From NCBI GenBank assembly GCA_958296105.1, contig OY282441.1:841800-905799 (forward strand): a stretch of 64,000 nt of DNA. The letters are read 5' to 3'. The notes under the pieces were generated by a model. It made no database searches and was not told where the DNA came from. It saw nothing but the letters and a program-made list of their open reading frames with translations. Positions 1,456 to 47,642 of this stretch are shown one piece after another; positions within the stretch are counted from its first letter, which is position 1, and each line of letters begins with the position of its first letter. The position numbers and the translations under genes were made by a program. The DNA comes from an uncultured Dehalococcoidia bacterium (GTDB taxonomy: Bacteria > Chloroflexota > Dehalococcoidia > Lucifugimonadales > UBA1123).

Positions 1456-1467
1456 GAGACGGACGCC

Positions 1468-2571: not shown

Positions 2572-2746
2572 ATCGCTGCCAGTGTATGCGCGCCACGCGC
2601 TTCATAGAGGAGACGCTCTGCGACCACAGATCGGGGACGCTGACGATTCGACCAGACCAAGCATGAATCGCTGCCAGTGTATGCGCGCCACGCGAATAGG
2701 AAACAGCGGACAACTCGAACGGCCAGACCAAGCATGAATCGCTGCC
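2505..2746 (+). repeat. 95-bp tandem duplication of the tail-gene 3' end, plus partial third copy
   Basis: Unit 1 is 2505-2599 and unit 2 is 2600-2694. They are directly adjacent and differ at one base. A 26-base fragment of the same sequence recurs at 2721-2746, after a 26-base unrelated insert. Each full unit carries the terminal coding sequence, the stop codon and about 28 bases of downstream sequence. The 95-base period is not a multiple of three, so copy 2 is not an in-frame extension of the gene. Confidence 0.9.
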
Positions 2747-2756
2747 GGCATATGCG

Positions 2757-2777
2757 CTCCCCTACTGGGAGAGGGGG
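2757..2777. repeat. REP-like palindrome fragment
   Basis: CTCCC (2757-2761) and GGGAG (2767-2771) pair around a five-base loop and are followed by AGGGGGC. The sequence resembles the right half of the longer palindromic elements at 12091-12126 and 56331-56367, so it is probably a truncated member of the same dispersed family. It lies between the phage-like genes and the convergent amidase gene. Confidence 0.55.
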
Positions 2778-2809
2778 CGGACGGCAGGGGCGCGGCTCGT
2801 GAACGGCGG

Positions 2810-4165: not shown

Positions 4166-4752
4166 GGCTGGCGTCTCCGGCGGCTGGGAACGTATGGTTT
4201 GCTATGGTGGCTTGCGCGGATATATCGGGGGAGAAGCTGCTCAGCCCGACTGCGAATACTCATCTGGTCACGGGTGGTCACAGGCTAACTCGGCTGCGCA
4301 GACGCTCTCAACTGCGCAAGCGTATCGAGCAGCGAGAATCGTCGTTCTGACATACTTCGGATGGGCGAGAGCCGATACGGCGGATCGGGCGGAGCGCATA
4401 TTCCAAAGCGATGAGCGAATCGCAAATCCAAGCTGCTTATCCCTAAGTTATGGGTTCGACGAATTGTATACGATAGAAGCGGATGGGTGAAGCGGCTGGC
4501 GGCAGCTTCTGAGCAGGATGCGGCGAGTCGTTCGCGGCGGCAATCGCGGAGGGCGGGCGCGCTGGTCAAGCGCTCCGCTGACAGTCTCGGCATATGGGCT
4601 GTCCCCGACGCTGAGGCGAGCGTAAGCGATGGGACTGGCCGACGACGAAACCAAAGGCTAGGCGCGAAACGGGCTGGATATACGATAGCGACACGTATTC
4701 TTCTAAGGTAGAATTTACACAATCGAGGACGGGGACGGGACGGGACTGAGAT
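4166..4752. other. 587-base intergenic region between divergent genes
   Basis: This region lies between the amidase start (minus) and the RCC1-like protein start (plus) and must hold both promoters. I found no convincing gene. Short open frames on both strands lack Shine-Dalgarno sites and family resemblance. There is no tRNA cloverleaf. An AT-richer stretch at about 4675-4720 contains TAGAAT (4709-4714), a possible -10 for the plus-strand gene, but no good -35 partner is seen. Confidence 0.5.
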
Positions 4753-7692
4753 ATGCAGAGACTTTTGAGTCGAGCTGGAATCGTCAAGCTGGGAATGTGG
4801 CCGGCGCTGGCGCTGGCTGTGGCGCTCGTGGCGGCGGCGAGCGGTCTGCTGGCGGCCGCGGGCGGCGCGGGCGACGCGGGTCAGTCCGCTACCGGTCTCC
4901 ACATGAGCGCGGACGCGGAGACCGGGGGCTACTGGTCGGACGGGAGCGTGAACCTTCTGCTGACCGCGCAGCTGCGGAACGATGGTCCAGACATGCTCAG
5001 AGACGCTCATCGGGTGGCGATAGACTGCGCGCAGGGCGGCGTTCCGATTCGCAACTGCGCTAGGCATCTGTCGTTCATCCTGTCGGACGGGTTCAGCCCA
5101 GCCTCGCAGGTGGTGAGCGTGCGCGCGCCCGCCGGCAGTGTGGATTTCAGCATAGACTACGGAGCGGACGAGCCGCTCGGTCTGAGCGTGGTCGTGCCAA
5201 AGCGGATCGTGGGCGTGGAGCGCAGCGTGTGGGAGTGTTTCAGAGACACGTCCAACGTGGGGACGCGCCTAGAGGCGACGCAGGGGATCGGGTGCGCGGC
5301 CTGGGAGAGCGAGAAGCTCGCCAAGTGGGATCAGTCAGCGCCGGTGAAGGTGTGGGCGACGGGGCAGCCCTCGTGGACAAGGGAGTTCCGCAAGGTCATG
5401 GACGAGATCGGCTCGGTGGCGAGTGTGGACATCGAATGGGTCTCGCGCGAGTCGGAGGCGGACATCGTGGCGCGGGTGGGAACGGCGCGCGCGGCCGGGG
5501 GCGAGAGCTGCGCGGACGGGGAGATCGGCTGCTCTAAGCGGAGTGTCAGCGAGAGCGGCGAGATCCAGCGCGCCAGCATTCGGATTCACAGCGGCGCGGT
5601 GGACTTCGGCAACCTGTCTATACATGAGAGGAACAGGACACTCCAAGCGATGAACCGCGAGGCTGTGCGCGCGCTCAGCCCGATGCGCGAGCGCGCCAAG
5701 CCGGGCAGCGCGATGGAAGGCGGCGAGGTCGGGAGGGTCGGGCTCAGCCCGATGGACGAGGAGCTTCTGAGGCTGTTCGGAAACCCGCTGATAGAGCCGG
5801 GAAGCGCCATTGCGGACATAGAGGCGCTGATCGTGTTCGGCGAGGACGTGATCAATCCGCAAGCCAGAGACGCCGCGCTCTTCAGATGGAGTCTGGCATA
5901 CGGGGCTTATTCGTCCATGCTGGAGGGGGAGACGGCGAGATTCAGAATAAAGTCGGACTCGCCAGACTGCAATACGTCGTTCGACTGGGCGGACTACCAC
6001 GCCGCCAACATCACGCGGGAGCTGGACCGCTTCAGCTGGGTGAAGCTGACGCGCGCCGACGTGGTGGACCTGTCCATCGAATCGAGGCCGCAGGTGTTCG
6101 AGTACTGGCACCGTCCGTTCGGCAAGTGGTGGCCCATAGAGTGGGAGGAGTACATCATCGACAAGGAGGGCTGGCGCGGCGATCTTGCCGATCCGTACCG
6201 CCTGCTGGAGACGCTGCTGAGAAGCGCGGACTGGGACGATACGACCCTGCAATCGAGCGGGGAAGGCGGATTGCGGCTGAAGTTCGACATGGACATGAAG
6301 GGGACTGTGGCAGACTCGTTCCTTCAGAGACTGAAGGGCCACGTGGACATAGACCCGAATGCCGGTGTGATGCGTGGATTCGACGTCAGGTGGACGTTTA
6401 CGGGCCAAGCGTGCAACACTCATCACTTCGAAGCCGAGTCGGGCAGCGTGGGGGACGAGTTCGAGATTCCGTCCGCCGTGCTGAAGGGGTCGACGGCTCT
6501 GGAGAAGTGCGACACCGATCTGGGCGTCATAGACGGGTCTCTGCGCCACGCCGATTCGTGGCTCAGGCACTGCGCGCCGACTGCTTCCTCCGGCGCGCCT
6601 GACGAGTACTCCCGAACTTTCGACTTCACGCTGGGCGACTGGCTGATAGCGCGTCTGGAGACGGACGTGAAGTCGGGCGCGGCTACGCGCCTGCGCCTCT
6701 CGGCGGTGAGCGAAGGGGAGACCGTTCCAGCGGCGCAGGGCGCGGGGGCGAGGCTGTCCAACGCCTGGACGCAGAGCCTCTTGGCGCCGGGCGCGTACCG
6801 CCTCGAAGTCGTGACCGCCAGAAGCCCTATTCCCGAGCCTTTCGAGCTGTCGATCATATCGTCCGAAACGGGCCTGCCGCCGCTCGTGTTCCGCTCGGTC
6901 AGCGTGGGCGGTCGCCACACGTGCGCGCTGCTCAAAAGCGGCGCGCCGGCGTGCTGGGGAAGCAGCGGGCAGGGGCAGGCGCTGCCGCCGCTGGGCCACA
7001 GGTTCAGCGCGATCAGCAGCGGAGACAGCCACACGTGCGGGCTGAAGACCAACGGCGTGGCGGCGTGCTGGGGGAGTAACTCGGCCGGACAGTCGAGACC
7101 GCCGGCGGGGGCGAGGTTCGCAGCCATCAGCGCAGGGCCAGACTACACCTGCGGGCTGAAGGCGAACGGTGTCGCCGAGTGCTGGGGGAGTCTGACGGAG
7201 GGCGGCGGGTCTACGAGGAGCGTAGAGCGGCTCGTGTCTATCGACAGCGGCGGCGGCCACGTGTGCGGACTGCGGCGGAACAGGTCGGCGGCGTGCTGGG
7301 GTTCCAATGAGGCGGGTCAGGCGACGCCGCCAACGGACGGCAGGTTCGTATCCATCGCCAGCGGAGACGCGCACACGTGCGGCCTTGCGCGGAGGAGTGG
7401 CGCGCTGACGTGCTGGGGGGCGAATCAGCATGGGCAGGCGTCTCCGCCTGCTGGGGCGTTCAAGTCGGTCAGCGCGGGCGGCAACCTGACTTGCGGGCTG
7501 CTCAAGAGCGGCTCGGCGGTGTGCTGGGGCCGGGACGCGCCGACGACGGGAGGAACGGTGTTCCGTTCCATCGACACGTCCGGATATCACACCTGCGCGA
7601 TCCGAGCCGATGGCTCGCCAGTCTGCTGGGGACGGGACGAGTTTGGCCAAGCGTCTCCTCCGCTGAGGCCTGCCGTCAGCCAGACGCCCTAG
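4753..7692 (+). CDS. secreted protein with degenerate metalloprotease-like domain and RCC1-type propeller
   Basis: 979 residues with an N-terminal signal or anchor (hydrophobic residues about 14-37), so exported. The C-terminal third (about residues 712-965) has seven repeats of the form aromatic-x-S-I/V-x-x-G-x-x-H/Y-T-C-G-L followed about 15 residues later by CWG. This is the bacterial Cys/Trp-rich variant of the RCC1 fold and should close as one seven-bladed propeller. The middle (about 200-350) has the layout of secreted matrixin-like peptidase domains, including the trailing LSPMDEELLRLF segment. Where a zinc HExxH helix is expected, the sequence is REAVRAL (302-308), so both histidines would be Arg. 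I therefore expect a binding, non-catalytic protein. No operon partner lies upstream; the next gene starts 22 bases downstream. Confidence 0.75.
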   Translation: MQRLLSRAGIVKLGMWPALALAVALVAAASGLLAAAGGAGDAGQSATGLHMSADAETGGYWSDGSVNLLLTAQLRNDGPDMLRDAHRVAIDCAQGGVPIRNCARHLSFILSDGFSPASQVVSVRAPAGSVDFSIDYGADEPLGLSVVVPKRIVGVERSVWECFRDTSNVGTRLEATQGIGCAAWESEKLAKWDQSAPVKVWATGQPSWTREFRKVMDEIGSVASVDIEWVSRESEADIVARVGTARAAGGESCADGEIGCSKRSVSESGEIQRASIRIHSGAVDFGNLSIHERNRTLQAMNREAVRALSPMRERAKPGSAMEGGEVGRVGLSPMDEELLRLFGNPLIEPGSAIADIEALIVFGEDVINPQARDAALFRWSLAYGAYSSMLEGETARFRIKSDSPDCNTSFDWADYHAANITRELDRFSWVKLTRADVVDLSIESRPQVFEYWHRPFGKWWPIEWEEYIIDKEGWRGDLADPYRLLETLLRSADWDDTTLQSSGEGGLRLKFDMDMKGTVADSFLQRLKGHVDIDPNAGVMRGFDVRWTFTGQACNTHHFEAESGSVGDEFEIPSAVLKGSTALEKCDTDLGVIDGSLRHADSWLRHCAPTASSGAPDEYSRTFDFTLGDWLIARLETDVKSGAATRLRLSAVSEGETVPAAQGAGARLSNAWTQSLLAPGAYRLEVVTARSPIPEPFELSIISSETGLPPLVFRSVSVGGRHTCALLKSGAPACWGSSGQGQALPPLGHRFSAISSGDSHTCGLKTNGVAACWGSNSAGQSRPPAGARFAAISAGPDYTCGLKANGVAECWGSLTEGGGSTRSVERLVSIDSGGGHVCGLRRNRSAACWGSNEAGQATPPTDGRFVSIASGDAHTCGLARRSGALTCWGANQHGQASPPAGAFKSVSAGGNLTCGLLKSGSAVCWGRDAPTTGGTVFRSIDTSGYHTCAIRADGSPVCWGRDEFGQASPPLRPAVSQTP

Positions 7693-7713
7693 CCACGGAG
7701 GTTCTAAGGGACG

Positions 7714-8574
7714 ATGACACGCATCCACGTTCTGGGCGCCGGCACGCCCACGCCGACGCCGACTCGATTCGGAAGCTCGTTCGTACTGGAAACGGGCGAT
7801 GACAAGGTGATGATAGACTGCGGGCCGGCGGCTACCCACAAGCTGGTGAAGGCGGGGCTGTGGCCGACCGAGATCGGCTATCTGTTCTTTACGCACCACC
7901 ACTTCGACCACGACATAGATTACCCCTGCTTCCTGCTGTGTCGCTGGGATCAGAGCATCGGGAAGGAGCGGCGGCTGGAGGTGTACGGACCGACGCTGAC
8001 GGAGCGCATCACGGAGGGCATTCTGGGGGAGGACGGTGTTTTCGCCCATGACTGGAAGGCGCGGGTGAACCATCCGCTGAGCCAGCGCATCCACGTCAAC
8101 CGCGGCGGCTCTCTGCCCCGCCCTGCGCCGGACGTGCTGGCGAAGGACGTTGGGCCGGGTCTAGTCTGCTCGGGAGCGGACTGGCAGGCGACGGCGGCCC
8201 CGGCGGAGCATGTCCAGCCATATCTGGACTCCTTGGCGTACAGGTTCGACACGCCTGACGGGGGCGTTGTGTTCACGGGGGATACTCAGCCGTGTGACAG
8301 CGTGCGCGAGCTGGCGACGGGCGCGGATCTGATGCTGTGCATGTGCTGGGACGATCAGGACGTGATGGACGAGATCGGAGAGGCGGGCGGGCAGTGCGGA
8401 ACGAAGGGCGCGGCGCGCATGGCGCAGGAAGCGGGGGTGAAGCGGCTGGCGCTGGTGCATATAGGGCCGCATCTGTCGGGACACGGCGCGATGGAGAAGG
8501 GCATAGGGGACGCGCGGGAGATATACGACGGGGAGCTGGTGTTCAGCGAGGAGCTGATGACGATAGAAATGTGA
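7714..8574 (+). CDS. MBL-fold metallo-hydrolase (RNase Z-like subgroup)
   Basis: 286 residues. The N-terminal strand IHVLGAGTPTPTPTRFGSS and the H61-x-H63-x-D65-H66 motif (in FTHHHFDHD) are diagnostic of a two-metal MBL hydrolase. The later GD-T turn near residue 190 (VVFTGDTQPCDSV) and a C-terminal histidine (LVHIGPHLSGH) supply the remaining metal ligands. The overall pattern resembles RNase Z and arylsulfatase-like MBL proteins, but the RNase Z exosite arm is not obvious, so the substrate is open. No signal peptide; cytoplasmic. It follows the RCC1 protein by 22 bases on the same strand and may be co-transcribed. Confidence 0.85.
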   Translation: MTRIHVLGAGTPTPTPTRFGSSFVLETGDDKVMIDCGPAATHKLVKAGLWPTEIGYLFFTHHHFDHDIDYPCFLLCRWDQSIGKERRLEVYGPTLTERITEGILGEDGVFAHDWKARVNHPLSQRIHVNRGGSLPRPAPDVLAKDVGPGLVCSGADWQATAAPAEHVQPYLDSLAYRFDTPDGGVVFTGDTQPCDSVRELATGADLMLCMCWDDQDVMDEIGEAGGQCGTKGAARMAQEAGVKRLALVHIGPHLSGHGAMEKGIGDAREIYDGELVFSEELMTIEM

Positions 8575-8655
8575 CAACGGCGGAAAGCAGATCAGACTGG
8601 CGCAGAGTCGTCTTCTGAAGAGGGTGTGGCGAGTCTGGCGTGTTCGTCAGCCGCC

Positions 8656-9282
8656 CTAGCAGATGGCATTCGACGATTTCGCTCTCATGGCGTCCCACTC
8701 GTGCCGCCAAATCTCCATCAGGATAAAATCGTGGCCGCCGCGTCGGACGGGCTTGACATCCTTGAAACCGGACTTGTGGAAGCTCTTCTGGGCGCGGAGG
8801 TTCCAATCCAAGGTGTGCAGGTAGACGCGGTCGAAGGGGTACTCTCCAAACATGTGGTCGAGCAGCAGGTCTACGGTTTCGGTGCCGTATCCCCTGCTCC
8901 AGTACTCTTTGTTGCCGATCATTATGCCCAGCTCTGCCTCGCGGGTACGCAGGTCTATGTCGTAGAACATGACGTTTCCGATGTGCAGGCCGTCTGCGGT
9001 GTCCACTGCCAAGCGCTTCGATCTGTGCGCTGGGGCTTCCAGCTCCTCTACGGAGTAGCGCTCGAAATCTCGAAAGTCCATCTGCAACGGGCGAGTGGCG
9101 TCGAGCTTCGCAAGCTCGTCGTCCGTGCGCCATTCGTAGTCGTCAGGGATGTCCGTCGCCGCCTTCTCGCGCAGCTGCACACGGCAGCCGCTGACGTGGA
9201 CGTCTTGCTGGATGTCAGCCGGCTTGGGATGCCGGCTCGACCATTGAAACACCTTTCTGAACAATGTCAACCTCGTTGTCAT
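8656..9282 (-). CDS. GNAT N-acetyltransferase, RimJ/RimL-like
   Basis: 208 residues. The acetyl-CoA binding motif A is clear in GIMIGNKEYWSRGYGTETV, followed by the hydrophobic helix LLLDHMF and the typical C-terminal HTLDWNLRAQKSFHKSGF (a neighbouring-residue acetylation fold, as in RimJ/RimL and spermidine acetyltransferases). The acceptor is unknown. The only good ATG (9282) makes the gene overlap the upstream Nudix gene by 68 bases. Homology to GNATs becomes obvious only from about residue 28, where no alternative start codon exists, so the long overlap appears real. The pair is probably one transcript. Confidence 0.82.
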   Translation of the reverse strand: MTTRLTLFRKVFQWSSRHPKPADIQQDVHVSGCRVQLREKAATDIPDDYEWRTDDELAKLDATRPLQMDFRDFERYSVEELEAPAHRSKRLAVDTADGLHIGNVMFYDIDLRTREAELGIMIGNKEYWSRGYGTETVDLLLDHMFGEYPFDRVYLHTLDWNLRAQKSFHKSGFKDVKPVRRGGHDFILMEIWRHEWDAMRAKSSNAIC

Positions 9283-9667
9283 AGGTGAGGGACTGGCAGG
9301 CGTCCGAGACGGGGGCCCACTTGACGAAATCGAATTCGTGGTCGTGGTTGGACAGGCTGCCGCCGACCGGCTTCATTAGATAGAAGTGTACGATCTTGCG
9401 ACATCTGGATCCGTCCTGAGCGCGCACGAACCAGTATTCGATGCTGTCTATGTATCTCTCGGATACGACCTCCAAGCCGGTCTCCTCGCGGACCTCTCGG
9501 AGCGCGGTCTGCTCCTCAGTCTCTCCGGGGTCCGGCGTTCCCTTGGGGAGTCCCCAGATTTGGGGGTAGCTGCGACCGCATATCACCACTTCCACCTGTC
9601 CGTGTCCGTTGGCGCGATAGACGACGCCCCCGGCGGACATCAGCTCGATAGTATGTCTTTTTCTCAT
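9215..9667 (-). CDS. Nudix hydrolase
   Basis: 150 residues with a perfect Nudix box: G43-x5-E49-x7-R57-E58-V59-x-E61-E62-x-G64-L65. It hydrolyses a nucleoside diphosphate linked to another moiety. The preceding GLPKGTPDPGE segment and short length resemble the Ap4A hydrolase/NUDT2-like and MutT-like groups, so dinucleoside polyphosphate or oxidised nucleotide cleanup is plausible. The start ATG 9667 has GAGAG a few bases upstream. It overlaps the GNAT gene downstream, which suggests co-expression. Confidence 0.88.
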   Translation of the reverse strand: MRKRHTIELMSAGGVVYRANGHGQVEVVICGRSYPQIWGLPKGTPDPGETEEQTALREVREETGLEVVSERYIDSIEYWFVRAQDGSRCRKIVHFYLMKPVGGSLSNHDHEFDFVKWAPVSDACQSLTYDNEVDIVQKGVSMVEPASQAG

Positions 9668-9730
9668 GGACTCTCTGCCTGCCTGATGTGGGCAATTCTA
9701 GGTTCTGAGCCTATGGCGGTCAAGATGGTC

Positions 9731-9841
9731 ACGCGCTGGACATAGTGTTACGGGTGGCGCAAAGAGTGGAGGTAATGGAGGTACTTTGACTAACAGATTG
9801 TTACGCGCTGGACATAGTGTTACGGGGTGGCGCAAAGAGTG
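9731..9841. repeat. 38/39-bp direct repeat upstream of the coiled-coil gene
   Basis: The sequence beginning ACGCGCTGGACATAGTG occurs at 9731-9768 and again at 9803-9841. The copies are identical except for one extra G in the second. Copy 2 ends directly at GTACAAT, a possible -10 element (9842-9847) of the downstream gene. The 34 bases between the copies contain TTGACT (9786-9791). Confidence 0.85.
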
Positions 9842-9866
9842 TACAATGAACGCAAGGAGAACAAGT

Positions 9867-10832
9867 ATGACTACGGCAGTGGAAGACATCATCAGGGCCA
9901 TGCGTGAGCAGCCCGAAGTGAGGGATCAGGTTCGCCGGGCTGTCTTGACTGACGAACTCTTGGAGCTGCCCGAGCGGTTTGCAACCCTCACGGCGCGGGT
10001 GGAAGACCTCTCGGAGCGGGTGGAAGCTCTCACCGCTCGATTCGAGGACATGGCTCTCATAGTGGAGAGCAACACGAGGCAGATAGCAGTCCTCACTGAG
10101 CGACTGGACACGCTCACTCAGCGCGTGGACGACCTCACAAAGCGCGTGGACACGCTCACTCAGCGCGTGGACGACCTCACAAAGCGCGTGGACGACCTCA
10201 CAAAGCGCGTGGACACGCTCACTCAGCGTGTGGACGACCTCACAAAGCGCATGGACGTTCTGACGGCGCGCGTGGACACTCTCACTCAGCGACTGGACAC
10301 GCTCACTCAGCGCGTGGACGACCTCACTATCATAGTGGAGAACAACACCAAAGCGATTTTGGAGCTTAGGGACGATGTTGGGCTGCTTCTGGGCGACAGG
10401 CTCGAACGGATATCCATACGCAACCTTCCGCCACAGCTCAGCCAGTCGCTCGGACTCAGACGCGCTCGCGTCATGCACTCGATGGAGGTGACGACGCGTC
10501 ACAGCGACGACTTCATCGCCAGAATCGAAGACGCCGCGGATGAGGGAACGATCTCCGAAGATCAGGAGTATCGGCTCAAGCGAACGGACATCATCATTCA
10601 TTCGCGCCGAAAGGGCGCGGGGAGTTCGCTGTGGATCGCCGCAGAAGTATCGGGGACGATTGGAGAAATAGACATCTACCGCGCTGCCGACTCCGCGGCG
10701 GCGCTGAAAGCCGCGCTGGGGGAAGATACCGTAGGGGTCGTGGTCGGCCATCGCATTCGGGACGAAGACCGAGCCAGGGCTGATGCGAACGGGCTGATCG
10801 TGCTGTTGGAGGGGCGCGATGCCCACGCATGA
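9867..10832 (+). CDS. long coiled-coil protein with putative PD-(D/E)xK-like C-terminal domain
   Basis: 321 residues from ATG 9867, chosen because AGGAG lies seven bases upstream; in-frame ATG 9846 and TTG 9786 lack such a site. Residues about 30-155 are an uninterrupted coiled coil of near-perfect heptads (VDDLTKR / VDTLTQR), encoded by 21-base repeats. The C-terminal domain (about 170-321) has TDIIIHSRR, then LWIAAEVSG, then VGVVVGHRI. That D...E-x-S order resembles a PD-(D/E)xK nuclease core, although the usual Lys is replaced. No membrane segment. Similar coiled-coil plus nuclease-like proteins are common, uncharacterised genes in bacteria. The function is unknown; DNA-end or membrane-associated scaffolding and defence are both possible. 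Confidence 0.7.
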   Translation: MTTAVEDIIRAMREQPEVRDQVRRAVLTDELLELPERFATLTARVEDLSERVEALTARFEDMALIVESNTRQIAVLTERLDTLTQRVDDLTKRVDTLTQRVDDLTKRVDDLTKRVDTLTQRVDDLTKRMDVLTARVDTLTQRLDTLTQRVDDLTIIVENNTKAILELRDDVGLLLGDRLERISIRNLPPQLSQSLGLRRARVMHSMEVTTRHSDDFIARIEDAADEGTISEDQEYRLKRTDIIIHSRRKGAGSSLWIAAEVSGTIGEIDIYRAADSAAALKAALGEDTVGVVVGHRIRDEDRARADANGLIVLLEGRDAHA

Positions 10833-10932
10833 TCCTCCGAAACCGAATTCGTCCTTGCTCTACTATGGGCATGTACGATAACATTATTCCCGTTTTGATG
10901 GACGTAACAGAAGCAGGGAGGTCCGCGCCAGT

Positions 10933-12078
10933 ATGGCTGATATGTCAAGGTCCGTAGCCATCGTCGGGGTAGCAGAGTCCGACGAGATAGGCAGGGTGGA
11001 AAACAAGTCGTCTCTGCAGCATCATGCGGAGGCCGCATACAATGCGCTCGAGGACGCTGGTCTGAAGATGAGCGACGTGGACGGCCTGCTTTCGGCTGGA
11101 TTTGGCACGCTGACGCTTGCCGAGTATATGGGAATCGAGCCGAAGTACACAGACTCGACTTCGGTCGGCGGCTCGTCTTTCATCATTCACATCGCGCACG
11201 CGATGGCGGCGATCAACGCGGGCTACTGCGAGGTGGCGCTGGTGACGCACGGCGAGGCGGGGCGCAGCGCGCGAAGCCGCGCGGGCGGAAACGCCGCAGA
11301 GCCGGGGCCGCAGTACGAGGTTCCATATGGGTTCATCGGCGCGCCCATTCTCTACTCCATGGCCGCGCGCAGGTACATGCACCAGTACGGGGAAGACCAC
11401 GCGCGGCAGGGCATGGCGGAGGTGGCGGTGGCAACGCGCAAGTGGGCGAACCTGAACCCGAAGGCGTACTTCAAAGATCTCCCCATGTCGTTCGACGACT
11501 ATCACAACTCGCGCTGGATCTCGTGGCCGTTCCACCTGCCAGACTGCTGCCTAGTGACGGACGCGGGGGGCGCATACGTCATTACGAGCGCAGAGCGCGC
11601 GCGTTCGCTGCCCAAGAAGCCGGTCTACGTTCTCGGAGCGGCGGAGGGACACGACCACGGGCTGATAAGCACGATGCCAGACCTGACGCGCACTTGGGGC
11701 AGATACACCGGACCCAAGGCGCTCGAAATGGCGGGCCTCACCCATGACGACGTCGATCTTGCGATGATCTACGACTCCTTCACCTACACCGTGCTGGTGA
11801 CGCTGGAGAGCCTCGGGTTCTGCGGGCCGGGAGAGGCGCCGGACTTCGTGGCGAATCAGCGCACCGCGCCCGGCGGCGAGTTCGCCATGAACACCAGCGG
11901 CGGCGGGCTGTCCTACACCCACTCGGGCATGTATGGCATGTTCCTGGTTCTGGAAGCTGTCAGGCAGCTGCGCGGCGAGACGGGCGAGCGCCAACTGGAT
12001 GACCCCAAGATCTCGCTCGTACACGGCACCGGCGGCCAGCTTTCGTCCACAGGCACGGTCATTCTGGCGGTGGACTAG
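10933..12078 (+). CDS. thiolase-superfamily protein (SCP-x/HMG-CoA-linked type), catalytic Cys absent
   Basis: 381 residues with the thiolase fold (N-terminal VAIVGVAESDEIG; central DDVDLAMIYDSFTYT; C-terminal SLVHGTGGQLSSTG). Where a condensing thiolase has its nucleophilic Cys, this protein reads SVGGSSF (residues 77-83). The second catalytic Cys position has become HGTGG, while the NTSGGGLSYTHSG His region is kept. Such proteins form complexes with DUF35 zinc-ribbon proteins, encoded here 69 bases downstream. The role is probably acyl-CoA retro-aldol/lyase-type or thioester chemistry in side-chain or isoprenoid-like substrate degradation rather than Claisen condensation; this is inference from the family. 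GGGAGG lies 11 bases before ATG 10933. Confidence 0.82.
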   Translation: MADMSRSVAIVGVAESDEIGRVENKSSLQHHAEAAYNALEDAGLKMSDVDGLLSAGFGTLTLAEYMGIEPKYTDSTSVGGSSFIIHIAHAMAAINAGYCEVALVTHGEAGRSARSRAGGNAAEPGPQYEVPYGFIGAPILYSMAARRYMHQYGEDHARQGMAEVAVATRKWANLNPKAYFKDLPMSFDDYHNSRWISWPFHLPDCCLVTDAGGAYVITSAERARSLPKKPVYVLGAAEGHDHGLISTMPDLTRTWGRYTGPKALEMAGLTHDDVDLAMIYDSFTYTVLVTLESLGFCGPGEAPDFVANQRTAPGGEFAMNTSGGGLSYTHSGMYGMFLVLEAVRQLRGETGERQLDDPKISLVHGTGGQLSSTGTVILAVD

Positions 12079-12090
12079 AAGTTATTCACC

Positions 12091-12126
12091 CTCACCCCTA
12101 CCCTCTCCCACCTAGGGAGAGGGGGC
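12091..12126. repeat. REP-like perfect palindrome inside the thiolase-DUF35 operon
   Basis: CCCTCTCCC (12101-12109) and GGGAGAGGG (12115-12123) form a nine-base-pair perfect stem with loop ACCTA, preceded by CTCACCCCTA. A close relative lies in opposite orientation at 56331-56367 and a fragment at 2757-2777. In the mRNA it would form a hairpin between two co-transcribed genes, where it may set relative expression or stability. Confidence 0.8.
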
Positions 12127-12147
12127 AGATTCAGAGGAGTAACGACA

Positions 12148-12564
12148 TTGACTCAAGCCTACAACAAGCCCGTACCTGTTCCTCAGCAGGAGTCGGACTT
12201 CTACTGGGAGAAGGCCAAGCAACACGAGCTGTGGCTGCGCAGCTGCAAGGACTGTGGCAGCGCCTACTTCTACCCGCGAGACATCTCGCCGTGCTGCTTC
12301 TCCAAGAATACCGAATGGGTTCAGGCTAGCGGCAATGCGGCGCTGTTCACCTACGGCATAGTCCACCGCGCGCCGCACCCGGGGTTCGTGGGCGACGTGC
12401 CGTTCGTCACCGCGATAGTCGAGCTGGAAGAGGGGCCGAAGATGGCGGCGAACGTGGTCATGGATGACCCGACGCCGGAGAAGCTCCAGATCGGCATGGC
12501 GCTGGAGGTGGTGTTCGAAGACATCACAGACACGATCGCGCTGCCGAAGTTCAGGCCGGCTTAG
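12148..12564 (+). CDS. DUF35 Zn-ribbon/OB-fold protein, thiolase partner
   Basis: 138 residues. The N-terminal helix (YWEKAKQHELWLRSC) leads into a rubredoxin-like zinc ribbon: CKDC, then a second pair CC about 13 residues later in ISPCCF, where the usual C-x2-C is contracted to adjacent cysteines. An OB-fold follows (FTYGIVHRAP, PFVTAIVELEEGP, VVFEDI). Family members bind acyl-CoA or bridge a thiolase to a second enzyme. The start is TTG 12148, fixed by AGAGGAG at 12133-12139. It is in one operon with the thiolase-like gene. Confidence 0.9.
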   Translation: MTQAYNKPVPVPQQESDFYWEKAKQHELWLRSCKDCGSAYFYPRDISPCCFSKNTEWVQASGNAALFTYGIVHRAPHPGFVGDVPFVTAIVELEEGPKMAANVVMDDPTPEKLQIGMALEVVFEDITDTIALPKFRPA

Positions 12565-12567
12565 GGG

Positions 12568-12658
12568 GTCTGAATCAGGGTTTTAGGATTATCACACGCC
12601 GATGCGCCAGACGCGCGATGGAGCGTATGACTGCGATCCTGTGAATCCTGATTCAGAC
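12568..12658. repeat. 91-bp element bounded by a 12-bp perfect inverted repeat
   Basis: GTCTGAATCAGG (12568-12579) and CCTGATTCAGAC (12647-12658) are perfect inverted repeats. Just inside them are further complementary pieces (AGGATT at 12585-12590 and AATCCT at 12644-12649). The element fills the gap between the DUF35 gene and the convergent phosphodiesterase gene, so it could serve as a bidirectional terminator or be a small mobile palindromic repeat. Confidence 0.75.
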
Positions 12659-12712
12659 AAAGAAAGAGCAGTGAGGGAAAGCTAGGGGCGTAGGAGTCAG
12701 CGGTCAGCGTCC

Positions 12713-14137
12713 CTATTCTCGCCATCCATTGCCCTCGTCCACGTAGGTTGTCCTGCCCACCCTCGACAGGCGGATGTGCTGGCAGTACATCCCACTCTCG
12801 AAGCGGCGCTCGGCGGTGTGGGTCTCGGACGACCACTCGACCGACGGCGGGCCGCCTATCAGGGCTTCACGGATCACGCGCCCGTCCATTTCGTCCGGGA
12901 CGGGCAAGCCGAGCAGGTGGAGCGCGGTCGGAGTGAGATCTATGTTGCCCGTCGGCGATGCTATGCGGGTCTGACGCTCGAAGCTCGGTCCGCGCGCCAG
13001 CAGAACGTTGTTCATCTCGTGTCTGCTCATCGAGCCGTGCTGTCCGAGTCCGGGCGCGCCCCCCGAGGAGTGAGCGTATCCGGCGTATCCGGCCGGGTTG
13101 GGGCGCGAATCCCATCCGAAAGACATGGCAATCTCCGGAGCGCGCGGGCCGTCTCCCCCGGCGATCGACATGGGCAGAGCGCCCTCGATCTCCCCTGCCG
13201 ACTCGGACGCCAGCAGCGCGCCGCACCACGCGCGCGACATGAGCCACGCTGCCAGCCGCTGCGCCGTGTCCGAATCGCGCGTGTAGAACAGGACGCTGCC
13301 GCCGTTGGGCGCGACGAGTACGTCTTCTCTGCCGAACCCTGCCTCGCGGACGTACCACTCCACATCGACCACCTCTTGGATCGTGGAGTAGCCGTGATCC
13401 GATACGACCAAGACGTCGGTTTCGGCACCGCGTCCGCTGGTCTCCAGCCATTCGAGTATCCGACCGAAGCCAGCGTCCGCCTCGCGGACGGCGCGGTTGG
13501 ACATCTCCGACCCCACGCCGCCGGCGTGCTGTGACTTGTCTGGCTCGGAAGACCAGACGAGGGCGACTGTGGGCTGGCGCTCGGGCAGGATATGTTCGGT
13601 GAGGATGCGGATGGCGTGGTCGAGTCTGGGGGTGTTGGGCAGGGACTCGGCCGGCCACGCGCCGAATCTTGCCGCGAGCCGCTCGTTCAGAGTTCTGGGC
13701 AGGGTGAAATCCGGGTGGATGGTCGCGCCGCCGGAGGTGTCCGCGCTGGGGTTGTGGACGTAGGCGTTGCCGGAGGTGCCGACTCCGATTGCGGCGTATT
13801 CGAGGCCGTGATCGGAGAGTACGTCTGCCAGCGTGGGCGCGAGCAAAGCTCTGCCCGTCCTGCGCCGAACGTCCTCCAGCGTGGGTTCGAGCGCGGAGAA
13901 TACGAGGGTTGGATCGTAGTCGCGCGCCACCATGGTGTTCGCGGCGAGGCCGTGTCCGCCGGGATACCTGCCTGTGACCATGCTGGCGGCGTTTATGCGG
14001 GTGACGGACGGAAACACCGGGTGGTGGCTCTCGAAGAAGACGCCCTCGGAGGCGAATCGCGCCAGATTGGGGGCCAGATCCGGGCGCACCTGAGCGGGCT
14101 GAAGTCCGTCGAAGACGGCGATGAGGACGTGGGGCAT
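12713..14137 (-). CDS. alkaline-phosphatase-superfamily phosphodiesterase/nucleotide pyrophosphatase-like
   Basis: 474 residues from ATG 14137, chosen over an upstream ATG because GGAGG lies seven bases before it. N-terminal VLIAVFDGLQP gives the first metal Asp (D10). The nucleophile is Thr46 in PSVTRINAASMVTGRYPG, the typical position in NPP phosphodiesterases. VWSSEPDKSQHAGG supplies Asp/His metal ligands, VVSDHGYS the Asp-His pair and GSMSRHEMNN the last His. There is no clear signal peptide, unlike secreted NPPs, so it is cytoplasmic. The substrate is unknown; a phosphodiester, phosphonate or sulfate ester is possible. It stands alone between convergent and same-strand neighbours. Confidence 0.85.
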   Translation of the reverse strand: MPHVLIAVFDGLQPAQVRPDLAPNLARFASEGVFFESHHPVFPSVTRINAASMVTGRYPGGHGLAANTMVARDYDPTLVFSALEPTLEDVRRRTGRALLAPTLADVLSDHGLEYAAIGVGTSGNAYVHNPSADTSGGATIHPDFTLPRTLNERLAARFGAWPAESLPNTPRLDHAIRILTEHILPERQPTVALVWSSEPDKSQHAGGVGSEMSNRAVREADAGFGRILEWLETSGRGAETDVLVVSDHGYSTIQEVVDVEWYVREAGFGREDVLVAPNGGSVLFYTRDSDTAQRLAAWLMSRAWCGALLASESAGEIEGALPMSIAGGDGPRAPEIAMSFGWDSRPNPAGYAGYAHSSGGAPGLGQHGSMSRHEMNNVLLARGPSFERQTRIASPTGNIDLTPTALHLLGLPVPDEMDGRVIREALIGGPPSVEWSSETHTAERRFESGMYCQHIRLSRVGRTTYVDEGNGWRE

Positions 14138-23537: not shown

Positions 23538-26500
23538 TCAAGGAGACCAGACCGGGGCCCAATCACCGCTGGAATGATCAGTGAGACGGGTTACTCCCGA
23601 ACCGTCCGCGTTCACCACGTATATCTCGGCGTTCCCGTCCCGTTCAGAGGCAAACGCTATGCGCCGTCCGTCAGGAGACCAATCCGGGCGCCAATCACTC
23701 TTGGAATGATCCGTGAGACGGGTGACTCCCGAGCCGTCAGCGTTCATCACGTAGATGTTGTGGTTCCCATCCCGATTAGAGCTAAACGCTATGCGCCGTC
23801 CGTCAGGAGACCAATCCGGGTACTCATCCTTCTCAGTATGATTCGTGAGACGGGTGACTCCCGAGCCGTCAGCGTTCACCACGTAGATATTCCTGTTCCC
23901 GTCCCGTTCAGAAATAAACGCTATGCGTCGTCCGTCCGGAGACCAGGTCGGTGCCCAATCATCCTCAGCATGATTCGTGACGCGGGTGACTCCCGAGCCG
24001 TCCACGTTCATCACGTAGATGTTGTGGTTCCCGTCCCGATCAGAATTAAACGCTACGCGCCGTCCGTCCGGAGACAAGACCGGGTACGCATCAAGCCCAA
24101 GCCGATTATTAGTGAGACGGGTGACTCCCGAGCCGTCAGCGTTCATCACGTAGAGATCCCAGTTCCCGTCCCGATTGGACTCAAACGCTATGCGCCGTCC
24201 ATTCGGAAACCAAGACGGGTCATAATCCAACCCACGATTATTCGTGAGACGGGTGACTCCCGAACCGTCAGCGTTCATCACGTAGAGCTCGGCGTTCCCG
24301 TCCCGACGAGACTCGAACGCTATCTTCCCGGATGGTGTGGGTGTGGGGTAGGAGGAAACCCGGACTGTGCCGGTCCAGGCCGGGTTGCGATTGAACCCAG
24401 AATGATCCGTGAGACGGGTGACGACTCCTGAGCCGTCCGCGTTCATCACGTAGATCTCATCGTTCCCGTCCCGACGAGACTGAAACGCTATGCGCCGACT
24501 GTCCGGAGACCAAGCCGGGGTGCTACCATCCCACGCAGTAGGATCAGTGAGACGGGTGACTCCCGATCCGTCAGCGTTCATCACGTAGATGCTCCTGTTC
24601 ACGTCTCGATCAGAGACAAACGCTATCTTCCGTCCGTCCGGAGACCAAGACGGGTAGCCATTACCCTCGGGGGTATCAGTGAGACGGGTGACTCCCGATC
24701 CGTCAGCGTTCATCACGTGTATCTCACCATTCCCGCCCAGATCCCGAGTAAACGCTATGCGTCGTCCGTCCGGAGACCAGGACGGGAAACTATCCTCCTC
24801 AGTATGATTCGTGAGACGGGTGGCTCCCGAGCCATCCGCGTTCATCACGTAGATCTCCCTGTTCCCGTCCCGAGTGGACTGAAACGCTATGCGCCGTCCG
24901 TCCGGAGACCAGGCAGGGTAATGATTCTCCCCAGGAGTAACAGTGAGACGGGTGACTCCCGATCCGTCAGCGTTCATCACGTAGATCTCAACGTTCCCGT
25001 CCCGAGTGGACTCGAACGCTATACGCCGACCGTCCGGAGACCAAGTCAGGACCCCATCCCACGCAGTATGATTCGTGAGCCGCGTCACTCCCGAACCGTC
25101 CGCATTCATCACGTAGATCTCAGCGTTCCCGTCCCGATAAGAATGAAACGCTATCCTCCCGGATGATGTGGGTGTAGGCGTATGCGTGGGAGTAGGCGTT
25201 GGCGTAATAGTCGGCGTGGGCGTTGGTGTATGTGACGGCGTTGGCGTATGCGTGGGCGTAGCCGAGATAGTGGGAGTAGGCGTTGGCGTAATAGACGGCG
25301 TTGGCGTTGGCGTATGCGTGGGAGTAGGCGTTGGCGTAATAGACGGCGTTGGGGTGGGGGTATGTGACGGGGTTGGCGTTGGTGTAATAGACGGCGTTGG
25401 GGTGGGGGTATGTGACGGGGTTGGGGTCGGGGTCGGAGGTGACACAGGCGTATCCGCGGCGGCGGTACCAGTGACCTTGAAAAGGCTCCCTGAGCTTACT
25501 GCCCAAGACAGTATCGCGTTGTTTCCGGCGAGATCGGTGATGGACGACCCCGACGGTACGCGAAGGCTGCCAGCAGGAACCCAAATTGTTCCGTCATCAT
25601 CCCTGTCCCCTTCCTGTACCGTGTATATGAAGATTAGGCGCGTGTCGGCGCTCTCCTCTGCGACATACTGCGCTCTGCGGGTCTCGCTGCCCATCTCCAA
25701 TCCCAGATATGGCAGTCCGCCTCCAGTATCGACAAGTACGTCCTCGTTGAACTCGACCCGTATCCGTATCTTCTCTCCCCTGCCATAGGTATCTCCAGAC
25801 AGTGGGCTATTTATGATGCCCGGCGCTCCGCCATAGATGTATGGCCGGAAAGTATCCGTGTGACTGCCTCTGACTTTCTGGTTGGGTTGGGTTGGGAGCG
25901 CTTCGTGTGCAGAGTCCAGAACTACTCCGTCGTAGGTAACGAACGATATGGAGTTGGCGGAGATGCTGATTCCGTCGTTGTCTATGTCATCTTGGGCAAC
26001 CAGATAGCTGAATGAGATATTGTTGGGACCGCAGCCGGAGTAACTCGCATCCTTCACTGCCGCTGGGCCGCTGCCTGTCTGGAACGTTAGGGAAATCCAT
26101 CCCCTGCCGCAGACCTGTTCGCTAAATCCGACTTCGACCCGGATGGCCTCGCTTGGTCCATAGGTGTCTCTTACGCCGTCACCGTCCGAGTCTATGCTCG
26201 GCTGAGAAGTGATGGTTGGGCCGCTAGTAATGTTCGGACCGGAAGAACGAGGCGCGGGCGTGGGTGTCGGCGTAATAGACGGCGTGGGCGTAGGCGTATG
26301 CGAGGGTGTCGGCGTTGGTGTAATAGACGGCGTGGGCGTAGGCGTATGTGACGGGGTATACGTAGGTGTCGGCGTAATAGACGGCGTATGCGTATGCGCC
26401 ATCGCAACCTGGACTGCGCCGGTGCCGGTCCAGGCCGGGTTGCGATCGAACCCAGAATGATCCGTGAGACGGGTCACTCCCGAACCGTCCGCGTTCATCA

Positions 26501-28343
26501 CGTAGATATCATCGTTCCCGTCCCGACGAGACTGAAACGCTATGTGCCGTCCGTCCGAAGACCAAGTCGGGGTACTTCCATCCCACGCAGTATGATCCGT
26601 GAGACGGGTGACTCCCGATCCGTCCGCGTTCATCACGTAGATGTTCCTGTTCCCGTCTCGATCAGAGACAAACGCTATCTGCCGTCCGTCCGGAGACCAG
26701 GACGGGTAGCCATCACCCTCGGGATGATCCGTGAGACGGGTGACTCCCGATCCGTCCGCGTTCATCACGTGTATCTCACCGTTCCCGCCCAGATTCCGAG
26801 TAAACGCTATGCGTCGAGCGTCCGGAGACCAAGACGGGAACCCCTCCTCCTCAGTATGCTTAGTAAGCCGGGTGACTCCCGAACCGTCCGCGTTCATCAC
26901 GTAGATGTTCCTGTTTCCGTCCCGATTAGACTGAAACGCTATGCGCTGTCCGTCCGGAGACCAAGCTGGGAAACCATCCTCCCCAGGATTATCCGTGAGA
27001 CGGGTGACTCGTGAGTCGTCCACGTTCATCACGTAGATGTCCCAGTTCCCGTTCCGACCAGACTCGAACGCTATGCGCCGACGGTCCGGAGACCAAGTCG
27101 GGACCCCATCGTCCTCAGGATTATCCGTGAGGCGGGTGACTCCCGAACCGTCCGCGTTCATCACGTAGATCTCGGGGTTCCCATCCCGACGAGACTGAAA
27201 CGCTATCTTCCCGGATGGCGGGGGCGTAGTCGCAGTCGTGGGTGTTGGAGTCGGCGTATGCGTATGCGTCATCGCAACCTGAACTGCGCCGGTCCAAGCC
27301 GGGTTGCGATCGAACCCAGAGTGATCAGTGAGACGGGTGAGCTCCGAACCGTCTGCGTTCATCACGTAGATCTCATCGTTCCCGTCGCGACGAGACTGAA
27401 ACGATATGCGCCGTCCGTCCGGAGACCAAGTCGGGGTGCTTCCGTCCCAATTGGGGTGATCCGTGAGCCGGGTTACTCCCGATCCGTCTGCGTTCATCGC
27501 GTAGATGTTCCTGTTTCCGTCTCGATCAGAAACAAACGCTATCTGCTGTCCGTCCGGAGACCAAGACGGGTAGCCATTACCCTCGGGAGTATCAGTGAGA
27601 CGGGTTACTCCCGATCCGTCCGCGTTCATCACGTGTATCTCACCGTACCCGTCCAGATCCCGAGTAAACGCTATGCGTCGTCCGTCCGGAGACCAGGACG
27701 GGAACCCATCCTCCTCAGTATGATTCGTGAGGCGGGTTACTCCCGAACCGTCCGCGTTCATCACGTAGATGTTCCTGATCCCGTCCCGATTGGACTGAAA
27801 CGCTATGCGCTGTCCGTACGGAGACCAAGACGGGAAGCCATCCTCCCCAGGATGATCAGTGAGACGGGTGACTTCCGAACCGTCCGCATTCATCGCGTAG
27901 ATGTCCCAGTTCCCGTTCCGACCAGACTCGAACGCTATGCGCTGTCCGTCAGGAGACCAAGTCGGGACTCCATCGTCCTCAGGATCATCAGTGAGACGGG
28001 TGACTTCAGAACCGTCCGCGTTCATCACGTAGATATCGGGGTTCCCGTCCCGACGAGACTGAAACGCTATCTTCCCGGATGGCGGGGGCGGGAGTGTAGA
28101 GGCGGGTGCTAGCGGGGGTGTTGGAGTGGGAGCTGCGGGATTTTCTACCTCGGCGACGACGGTTCTAACTACAGGAGCGGAGCTCGCGGGGGGGGGGGGG
28201 GTAGTTAGGGGATCCTGCGCGCACGCGACGGCGAAGACAACGGTCAGCATGAGGGAGAGGGCTTTCGGAATTCGACCTTTCCCAGCAAGCTGATTCATTC
28301 TGATCTTACGCAGTCCTAGGCAGATGGAGTTCGTCGAAGGCAT
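23538..28343 (-). CDS. giant exported lipoprotein with four six-bladed TolB/PD40 propellers and two Ig-like domains
   Basis: About 1,601 residues from ATG 28343 (GAGGA eight bases upstream); ATG 28298 is an alternative that gives a more usual signal length. The signal ends in VVFAVAC, a lipobox-like site, so the protein is probably lipid-anchored outside. Order: Pro/Thr linker; 6 PD40 repeats (28085-27290); linker; 6 repeats (27213-26410); Thr/Pro linker; two Ig-like/SwmB-type domains (about 26230-25450; [14 protein letters not shown] and [14 protein letters not shown]); Thr/Pro linker; 6 repeats (25165-24365); 6 repeats (24343-23538). The repeat core is R-D-G-N[16 protein letters not shown] followed by [10 protein letters not shown]. 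24 repeats in four sixes fit four TolB-like propellers. The probable role is extracellular binding. A 14-base C run in the coding strand follows the signal. Confidence 0.88.
28188..28201. repeat. homopolymer of 14 G (C14 in the coding strand)
   Basis: Fourteen consecutive G on the plus strand lie inside the giant lipoprotein gene and encode a run of four Pro about 9 residues after the lipobox Cys. It is by far the longest mononucleotide run I see in the window. Gain or loss of one or two bases would frameshift the remaining ~1,550 codons. Confidence 0.95.
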
Positions 28344-45387: not shown

Positions 45388-45575
45388 TAGCCTGTCTCCT
45401 GTGGTGTGATGTAATCATTCTATTGGACAGCGCCGCCCAACTCCATAGGGGAAAACAGATCGAGGACGCATCAATTTCTCTCAATTTCTCGTAGGGTTCT
45501 CTCAGCATCCGCGCGCAGTGACGTTTTCGCGCGTGGGGGCTATAATGGCGGCAATCACCCTTTGGGAGGGTCCAA

Positions 45576-46475
45576 GTGAGTCTGAAGACGATAGCGATTC
45601 TGAGTCCCGGCGACATGGGTCACGGGGTCGGCAAGGCGCTGCGCGAACATGGATACGACGTGATCACGTGTCTGGCAGGGCGAAGCCAGCGCACCAGAAC
45701 TCTGGCGGCGGCCGGCGGCTTCCGCGATGTTCCGACGCTGGAGGAGATGATCACGCAGGCGGATCTGATCATGTCGATCCTGGTGCCGGCGGCGGCTGTT
45801 GGAGTCGCCGAATCGGTGGCGGAGGCGATGGCGAGGGCGGGCGTATCGAGGCCGTTCGCGGACTGCAACGCCGTCTCTCCGGCGACGGCGCAGGCGATGG
45901 AAGCGATAATCAGGGACGGCGGGGGCGAGTACATAGACGGTGGCATAATCGGCGGCTCGCCTGCCAGAGGAGCGACGCCGCGTATCTACGTCTCCGGACC
46001 CGGCGCCTCGATCATGGACGAGCTGGACGGCAAGGGAATCGGCGTTCCCAACCTTGGGGCAGAGATCGGCAGGGCGTCCGGAATCAAGATGTGCTACGCA
46101 TCCATGACGAAGGGGACGTCTGCGCTTCGCGTGGCGATGCTCACGGCGGCGCGGTCGCTGGGGCTGTACGGCGAGCTGGTGGCGGAGCTGGCGCACAGCC
46201 AGCAAGGGGCGCTGTCGGCCATGGAGTCCGGCGTTCCGGGTCTTCCGTCCAACGCGGGGCGCTGGATTGGGGAGATGGAAGAGATAGCGGCGACTTTCGA
46301 GGGCGCGGGGGTGACTCCGAGCTTCCATCTAGGGGCGGCGGAGATATTCAGGCTGCTGGCGTCAACGCCGTTCGCGGACGAAAGCCCGGAGACGGTAGAC
46401 CGCGACAGGACGCTGGCGGATACCATTCAGGTTACGGCGGAGCATCTCCCCGCCGCCGAAAGGATCTCGGAGTGA
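45576..46475 (+). CDS. NAD(P)-binding 6-phosphogluconate/3-hydroxyisobutyrate dehydrogenase-like protein (DUF1932 type)
   Basis: 299 residues from GTG 45576, with GGAGGG seven bases upstream. The N-terminal Rossmann fold has IAILSPGDMGHGVGKALREHG, and the beta-hydroxyacid dehydrogenase motif region is YIDGGIIGGSPARG. The conserved Lys in the helical domain is probably in MCYASMTKGTSALRVA. DUF1932 marks a clade whose substrates are mostly unknown. It ends in the first unit of a 71-bp tandem repeat whose units each recreate the GTGA junction with the following alcohol dehydrogenase. Confidence 0.88.
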   Translation: MSLKTIAILSPGDMGHGVGKALREHGYDVITCLAGRSQRTRTLAAAGGFRDVPTLEEMITQADLIMSILVPAAAVGVAESVAEAMARAGVSRPFADCNAVSPATAQAMEAIIRDGGGEYIDGGIIGGSPARGATPRIYVSGPGASIMDELDGKGIGVPNLGAEIGRASGIKMCYASMTKGTSALRVAMLTAARSLGLYGELVAELAHSQQGALSAMESGVPGLPSNAGRWIGEMEEIAATFEGAGVTPSFHLGAAEIFRLLASTPFADESPETVDRDRTLADTIQVTAEHLPAAERISE

Positions 46476-46627
46476 AAGCGCTGTTCTCAGTCGCTGAAGT
46501 CGCCAAGATGGAACGAAGCTCGCCAGCCGAAAGGACCTCGGAGTGAAAGCGCTGTTCTCAGTCGCTGAAGTCGCCAAGCTGGAACGCAACTCGCCAGCCG
46601 AAAGGATCTCGGAGTGAAAGCGCTGTT
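46455..46627 (+). repeat. 71-bp tandem repeat (2.4 copies) with chained GTGA stop/start overlaps
   Basis: Units start at 46455, 46526 and 46597 (the third is partial, to 46627). Each contains GGAGTGAAAGCGCTGTTC, where the stop TGA of one frame overlaps a GTG start. This gives two 24-residue frames, 46472-46546 and 46543-46617, lying between the two dehydrogenase genes. Each begins VKALFSVAEVAK, ends AERxSE, and overlaps the next start by four bases. The final GTG at 46614 is the alcohol dehydrogenase start. The short frames may be translated but are probably duplication by-products. Confidence 0.92.
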
Positions 46628-47642
46628 CATAGAGATGCCAGGTCCAAGCCCGCAAATCGGGATCAGAGAGGTCGAGACGCCGGAGGCGCGTTCTGGCGAG
46701 GTGGTGATGGAGGTGAGCGCCGCCGGGCTGTGTGGACACGACATAGCGGTTATGACGGGTCTTCTGAGAAGGGGCGTGGATTACGGGGTGATCCCCGGTC
46801 ACGAGGTGGCGGGGCGCGTGGCGCAGGTGGGGGCTGACGTGTCGGGGCTGTCCAGCGGGGACGCGGTGGTCGCCTCTCTGACTGTGTTCTGCGGTGAATG
46901 CGACCGCTGCGCTGCGGGCATGGACTACCGCTGTCGAGTCGGGCGCGGCGTGGGGCATGGGGTGAACGGCGGCTTCGCGGAGTACATGCGGATTCCGGCG
47001 AGGTGCGTAACGCGCGCGCCGGACGGGATGGATCTGACGCAGGCGGCTCTGCTGGCGTGTCCCATCGGGGTGTGCGCGCGCGCGGTGAGGTCCGCCGCCG
47101 GCGTGGCTGGCGGGGAGACCGTTCTGGTCACGGGCGCAGGGGGCGGGCTGGGCATTCACGCCGTACAGGTGGCGAGGGCGCTGGGCGCGCAGGTGTTCGC
47201 TGCCACGTCCAGCGCGGACAAGCTCGATGAGCTGGAACGGTTCGCGCCCGGGGGGGTGATTCTCGGCGGCGAACTCGATTTCTCCGAGCTTGCGCTGGCA
47301 TTCACGGAGGATCAAGGGGTGGACGTGGTGATAGACACGGTGGGATCCGCGGTCTTCAGAAGCTCGGTTCGCAGTCTGGCGCAGTACGGGCGAATCGTGG
47401 TACTGGGGGAGGTCGCCGGAGGGCGGGCGTCGCTCAGCCTGACGGACCTGATGTTCAGAGACGCATCGGTTCACGGCTCGACGGGCGCCAGTCTGTCGGA
47501 CATAGCCGCCGCCGCGGAGATGGCGGCGAGCGGAGAGGCGCGCCCTGTGGTACACGCGGCTATGGCGCTGGAAGACGCGGGCGAGGCGGTTCGGATGGTG
47601 ACGAACAGAGAGGTCACCGGCAGGATTGCGCTCGTGCCATAG
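46614..47642 (+). CDS. zinc-dependent medium-chain alcohol dehydrogenase
   Basis: 342 residues from GTG 46614. GroES-like domain with AAGLCGHDIAVMTG (catalytic Zn Cys and nearby His), IPGHEVAGRV (GHE motif) and the structural-zinc lobe C-x2-C-x2-C-x7-C in FCGECDRCAAGMDYRC. Rossmann domain: VLVTGAGGGLGIHAVQVARALGA. It oxidises an alcohol or reduces a carbonyl/enone with NAD(P). Translation is probably coupled through the preceding repeat to the dehydrogenase upstream, which suggests consecutive steps in one pathway. It is convergent with secF, seven bases away. Confidence 0.92.
   Translation: MKALFIEMPGPSPQIGIREVETPEARSGEVVMEVSAAGLCGHDIAVMTGLLRRGVDYGVIPGHEVAGRVAQVGADVSGLSSGDAVVASLTVFCGECDRCAAGMDYRCRVGRGVGHGVNGGFAEYMRIPARCVTRAPDGMDLTQAALLACPIGVCARAVRSAAGVAGGETVLVTGAGGGLGIHAVQVARALGAQVFAATSSADKLDELERFAPGGVILGGELDFSELALAFTEDQGVDVVIDTVGSAVFRSSVRSLAQYGRIVVLGEVAGGRASLSLTDLMFRDASVHGSTGASLSDIAAAAEMAASGEARPVVHAAMALEDAGEAVRMVTNREVTGRIALVP

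Follow-up and report, generated by a model that had tools for sequence, protein, structure and literature searches.

Tandem array at the junction of two dehydrogenase genes

The window (the whole 64,000-nt stretch of DNA that was analysed) contains two co-directed genes whose junction is occupied by a short tandem array. Based on Pfam domains and identity to congeners, gene one (45576-46475, + strand) encodes a 299-aa NAD-binding dehydrogenase-like protein with NAD_binding_2 and a C-terminal DUF1932 domain and ends in GTGA, and gene two (46614-47642, + strand) encodes a 342-aa zinc-dependent alcohol dehydrogenase-like protein (ADH_N and ADH_zinc_N). Between them, 71-bp tandem units extend over 46455-46628 in the block order A-B-A-B-A; Tandem Repeats Finder applied to the window reports 46451-46628, period 71, 2.5 copies and 94% matches. 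According to the repeat alignment, block A has 32 nt (copies at 46455-46486, 46526-46557 and 46597-46628, all + strand) and block B has 39 nt (46487-46525 and 46558-46596, also + strand). Block A combines the GTGA overlap with gene one's final codons, an AAAGGA Shine-Dalgarno-like motif located 7 nt before the GTG start and gene two's first five codons (VKALF in copy 1, which also encodes the end of gene one); copy 3 is gene two's own start region. Copies 1 and 3 of block A are identical over all 32 nt and copy 2 carries one change. The two B copies agree at 36 of 39 positions, and a CRISPR array, in which they would be the spacers, was ruled out by this similarity. Since units 1 and 2 differ at four of 71 sites (46465, 46508, 46516 and 46518), the array is unlikely to be an assembly duplicate, an artefact that the initial annotation had feared.

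We were able to reproduce the 71-bp repeat, its two 24-codon frames and its three 4-nt GTGA stop/start overlaps (46472, 46543 and 46614) as initially annotated, coordinates and translations included, along with the observation that a 71-base period recreates the overlapping stop and start in each unit. The relay frames, both on the + strand and each consisting of 24 residues plus a stop, encode the peptides VKALFSVAEVAKMERSSPAERTSE (46472-46546) and VKALFSVAEVAKLERNSPAERISE (46543-46617); the first doubles as the end of a 342-codon open frame (45518-46546). Three of the four differences between units change an amino acid, so the relay peptides show no sign of selection, as far as so small a number can tell. 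In this GC-rich DNA, chains of stop/start overlaps are frequent by chance (962 maximal chains of at least two links in 464 kb, redundant starts counted), and 39 of these were flagged as repeat-based; what is noteworthy here is a repeat-built chain that spans exactly from gene one's stop to gene two's start.

The junction in related genomes

The source genome is a single contig of 3.18 Mb, and the best named relatives of gene one come from Dehalococcoidia / SAR202 cluster assemblies. Gene one is present in 48 of 98 genomes (own genome included); of the 98, a 301-nt DNA query spanning the junction hit the source genome and no other. The two genes are adjacent in 16 of 29 other-genome loci examined (L004-L032), where -4 to +123 nt separate them, and in 21 of 80 named loci, where the gap is -1 to +123 nt (the two sets of loci overlap). 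A 4-nt overlap was found in one of the 16 relatives' loci with the adjacent pair (L023). At the congener loci (82% identity for gene one, 69-70% for gene two), the gaps are 123 nt (L004) and 8 nt (L005) and gene one ends in TAG, so the simple GTGA junction that the initial annotation envisaged in related genomes does not describe the congeners, which have no GTGA overlap at all. No array with a period of at least 20 was found at the junction in the 44 loci scanned (37 for this gene pair and seven for the L150 pair described below); four arrays were detected in these loci, all of them away from the junction. Because the relatives with the same gene pair have such variable gaps and no repeat, the array and the overlap both appear to have arisen in this lineage, within the limits of the relatives sampled. 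Translational coupling of the dehydrogenase pair is, judging from these loci, not conserved among relatives. By eye, the 123-nt dehydrogenase spacer of one congener (L004/L041) contains a palindromic, REP-like stretch.

Origin of block B

The initial annotation described the repeat as a gene junction that had been duplicated twice. This description fits block A and fails for block B, which matches neither gene, and a clean junction duplication was therefore ruled out as the source of the B part of the 71-bp unit. Ungapped comparison of B with the two flanking genes gave 11 and 13 identities out of 39, and its local alignment scores against them were equalled or exceeded by 347 and 375 of 500 shuffles, respectively. 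In the sampled half of the genome, the best match of B scored 24 (15-18 for 12 shuffled versions) and covers 29 of 34 nt, in antisense orientation, inside a gene with FtsX and MacB domains (FtsX-like permease). Chance is an unlikely source of this match. A whole-genome search with a pattern built from B and the permease site returned only three places, with B and the permease site both matching by construction; the reversed pattern had no match in the whole genome, and an exact 23-nt pattern, mostly B, had none in the genome contigs searched. Block B may be a scrap captured from the permease gene, and the divergence of 15% leaves direct descent from that gene uncertain; it is probably filler that was caught at a duplication breakpoint. 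A dispersed element was considered for the array as a whole and rejected, as the whole-genome search found no second place for the 173-nt array in its own genome and B alone has one partial relative.

Tandem arrays at other gene junctions

The source genome (G000) is unusually rich in tandem repeats. We counted 133 strong arrays (period of at least 30, matches of at least 85%, same settings for all genomes) in 1.584 Mb, i.e. 84 per Mb, as compared to eight in 800 kb, or 10 per Mb, for a congener (G003) and to 10 in a 400-kb sample from a genome of the same order (G010), a comparison that is rough, with one genome each sampled. Since G003 is assembled in six contigs and G010 in one, loss of repeats in broken assemblies is no obvious cause of the low counts. 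The G003 and G010 samples contain zero relay arrays.

About half of the source genome contains two further arrays of the same architecture, with periods of 56 and 143. The first, which surfaced in the chain search of the first 464 kb (L138:16612-16879; G000:C1 about 2856612-2856879), has 4.8 copies of a 56-bp unit. Its four 19-codon frames bridge the stop of an acyl-CoA dehydrogenase-like gene at 16655 and the start of a DUF6338 gene at 16876, with ATGA links at 16652, 16708, 16764, 16820 and 16876. The second, found in the enlarged sample (L150:17238-17525, - strand), has a 143-bp unit and one 48-codon ATGA-linked frame between a FAD oxidoreductase gene and a GNAT acetyltransferase gene. In both, the unit is clean, consisting of gene two's head followed by gene one's tail, and we accept clean junction duplication as their apparent source. 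In seven relatives, the genes of the L150 pair do not overlap and lie 2 to 165 nt apart. For the downstream gene of L138, a search of 39 other genomes gave just one match, a weak one.

Altogether 25 candidate rows were obtained from the source genome and three were counted as relays, with gene calls from a simple codon-score caller, whose starts can be wrong. One row (L176:6649-6755) was flagged by the arithmetic and left uncounted as an N-terminal extension: its 24-bp repeats (0 mod 3) begin at a GTGA overlap and lengthen the downstream protein's N-terminus by a proline/lysine-rich, eight-residue repeat unit ahead of an apparent signal peptide. The other 21 rows were left out as tandem copies near the scale of whole small genes (L137, L149, L161 and L165; 13 rows), as long repeats presumed to be coding (L179, L184 and L187; six rows), or because they touch gene one's stop and not gene two's called start (L133 and L162). 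In the window itself, a 95-bp duplication at a gene end (2505-2694) carries ATGA links at 2568 and 2663 and is followed by a third partial copy at 2734; the next called gene is on the opposite strand.

Reading-frame rule for repeat periods

All three counted junction arrays have periods of 2 mod 3 (71, 56 and 143). When duplications of 66 real -4 junctions were simulated, periods of 2 mod 3 gave a relay in 98.9% of the cases, periods of 0 mod 3 gave an N-terminal extension of gene two in 84.5%, and periods of 1 mod 3 lost the coupling in 84.8%. A period of 2 mod 3 yields a relay because gene two's head and then gene one's tail are each read in their own stop-free frame until the following NTGA is reached. 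The chance of finding three of three periods in this class is 1/27, or 0.011 if the share of 2 mod 3 among other arrays outside genes (17 of 77) is used, for a rule that was formulated once two of the three arrays were already known. No junction array with a period of 1 mod 3 was seen in the sampled half of the genome, where few arrays were available. We regard these frame statistics, from three arrays, as suggestive and not as proof.

These observations bear on whether the arrays are pure neutral accidents, with no filter on the frame, coincidental periods of 2 mod 3 and spacers that simply drift. Coverage alone would place 1.15 arrays on -4 junctions (three were seen, P = 0.11, which leaves special targeting of junctions by arrays unsupported), three periods in one class would arise at the 1/27 given above, stop/start chains are common by chance, and the 95-bp duplication in the window shows that an ATGA-linked chain can arise where nothing is gained. 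This reading is at odds with all three gene-to-gene arrays being exact relays, and with 18 of the 77 other arrays outside genes, and none of the junction arrays, having periods of 1 mod 3. We consider it rather unlikely, while giving it real weight.

Could ribosomes pass through the array

The Shine-Dalgarno-like matches at the links have strengths of -5.6 to -5.7 kcal/mol, as compared to a median of -5.5 for 1267 called starts, calculated with a generic anti-SD tail that may differ from the organism's own 16S tail. With the same generic tail, the ten starts in the three arrays all have motif strengths near or somewhat above the genome median. Every link thus has a 4-nt overlap and a Shine-Dalgarno-like match close to the genome median, which makes each link plausible and a termination-reinitiation relay mechanically possible. 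According to the accessible text of PMC10666635, genes are coupled only when they overlap or lie very close together, with little coupling left at a spacing of about 20 nt. Of the upstream gene, no more than the last 15 nt are needed, so the 24-codon frames would be long enough for coupling.

The closest known system is NTGA termination-reinitiation coupling (PMC6728339, PMC10666635). As far as the accessible text of these papers goes, the likeness lies in the shared NTGA of stop and start, present here at every link, in a Shine-Dalgarno-like motif within the upstream frame, and in an overlap geometry of a type for which gene coupling has been demonstrated in E. coli and Haloferax volcanii. 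Here, however, a chain of short repeated frames joins one gene pair instead of a single overlap. Such a chain is not described in the accessible text of the two papers (the words 'duplication' and 'tandem' are absent from the main text of PMC10666635), and the open-licence literature gave nothing on point for repeated junctions, minicistrons or tandem start regions. The array also resembles minisatellites (VNTRs), with head-to-tail, near-identical units of a type abundant in the source genome, but a start region and a stop/start overlap are built into every unit, so that the array is potentially translated throughout. Like upstream ORFs and leader peptides, the short frames lie directly before a gene, whereas here they follow a same-strand gene and no structured leader is predicted. 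In folding predictions, 191 of 200 shuffles folded at least as well as the array (z = +1.8); an attenuator or leader-peptide regulator was rejected, the stable alternative RNA structure of such a device not being found.

The initial annotation went further and proposed that the relay tunes the ratio of the two proteins. The relay part is mechanically possible, as described above, and the tuning part is unsupported: it is possible and not favoured, given the variable gaps in relatives and the tandem arrays found all over the genome. In its full form, this idea makes the array a translational rheostat, in which the number of relay links sets the dehydrogenase ratio and changes in copy number adjust it. 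The sound links would suit such a device, as would the recurrence of the design at three gene pairs, where the relay frames number 2, 4 and 1. The coupling of the pair is unconserved, though, the three gene pairs (dehydrogenases; acyl-CoA dehydrogenase-like and DUF6338; FAD oxidoreductase and GNAT acetyltransferase) have no common function, and the number of arrays fits background coverage, so that we find a rheostat quite doubtful. Extra ribosome entry, in which three Shine-Dalgarno-like sites and starts raise local ribosome loading and the 24-residue peptides are incidental, appears highly improbable. In its favour, what copies 1 and 3 share without any change is block A, with its AAAGGA motif and GTG; this identity may also reflect recent duplication, and ribosomes starting in copies 1 or 2 would stop before gene two and have to reinitiate.

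Proposed origin and retention of the array

With moderate confidence, we explain the array as a minisatellite-scale accident of tandem duplication at an overlapping junction in a repeat-prone genome, kept where it left coupling unbroken. In a first step, gene two's GTG would have come to overlap gene one's TGA in this lineage, and a 71-nt unit (junction block plus the 39-nt filler) would then have been inserted and duplicated. As 71 is 2 mod 3, each copy would recreate the 4-nt stop/start overlap, and a ribosome leaving gene one could be handed through the two 24-codon frames to gene two by termination-reinitiation. With other copy lengths, gene two would often lose its supply of upstream ribosomes, leaving the 2 mod 3 class to survive, and such a frame filter is the likely reason that this kind of array remains. 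Against this account, the present array is not a clean duplication like the other two, as B does not come from the junction.

Under the accident with a frame filter, the array would be tolerated rather than selected as a control device, and its effect on gene two would probably be a modest loss, partly offset by the three Shine-Dalgarno-like sites. We hold it to be tolerated because the gap and overlap are unconserved, the three gene pairs are unrelated and arrays occur genome-wide, and because the 95-bp duplication in the window repeats ATGA without a same-strand gene directly behind it. A broader proposal, that in repeat-prone bacteria frame-filtered relay arrays (2 mod 3) of mini-frames accumulate between operon genes as a distinct type of element whose links each hand the ribosome on, and where changes in link number shift the expression ratio reversibly and frame-neutrally, is one that we put forward as unlikely, if worth stating.

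If the frame filter holds, junction arrays are a natural experiment on how far operons need termination-reinitiation, and the strength of coupling could be read from the repeat periods that evolution has kept. With their 1, 2 and 4 relay frames, the three arrays could serve directly as constructs from which per-step reinitiation efficiency is measured. If only accident is at work, neighbouring genes evidently still tolerate up to 220 nt of repeat with the frame relay intact.

Other repeats in the source genome

Other repeats seen in the source genome include long arrays of a 132-bp unit in the window (23542-28072; the period is a multiple of 3 and these are probably coding repeats), and a very large CRISPR-like array (L132, about 49-12955) with 178 copies of a repeat of about 36 nt at 71-77 nt spacing, in which 175 of 177 spacers are distinct. 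PaREP1-family small genes are found as five (L137:14574-16524) and three (L165:8814-10065) tandem head-to-tail copies with periods of 398 and 421, respectively, and one of them has a sub-threshold HEPN match.
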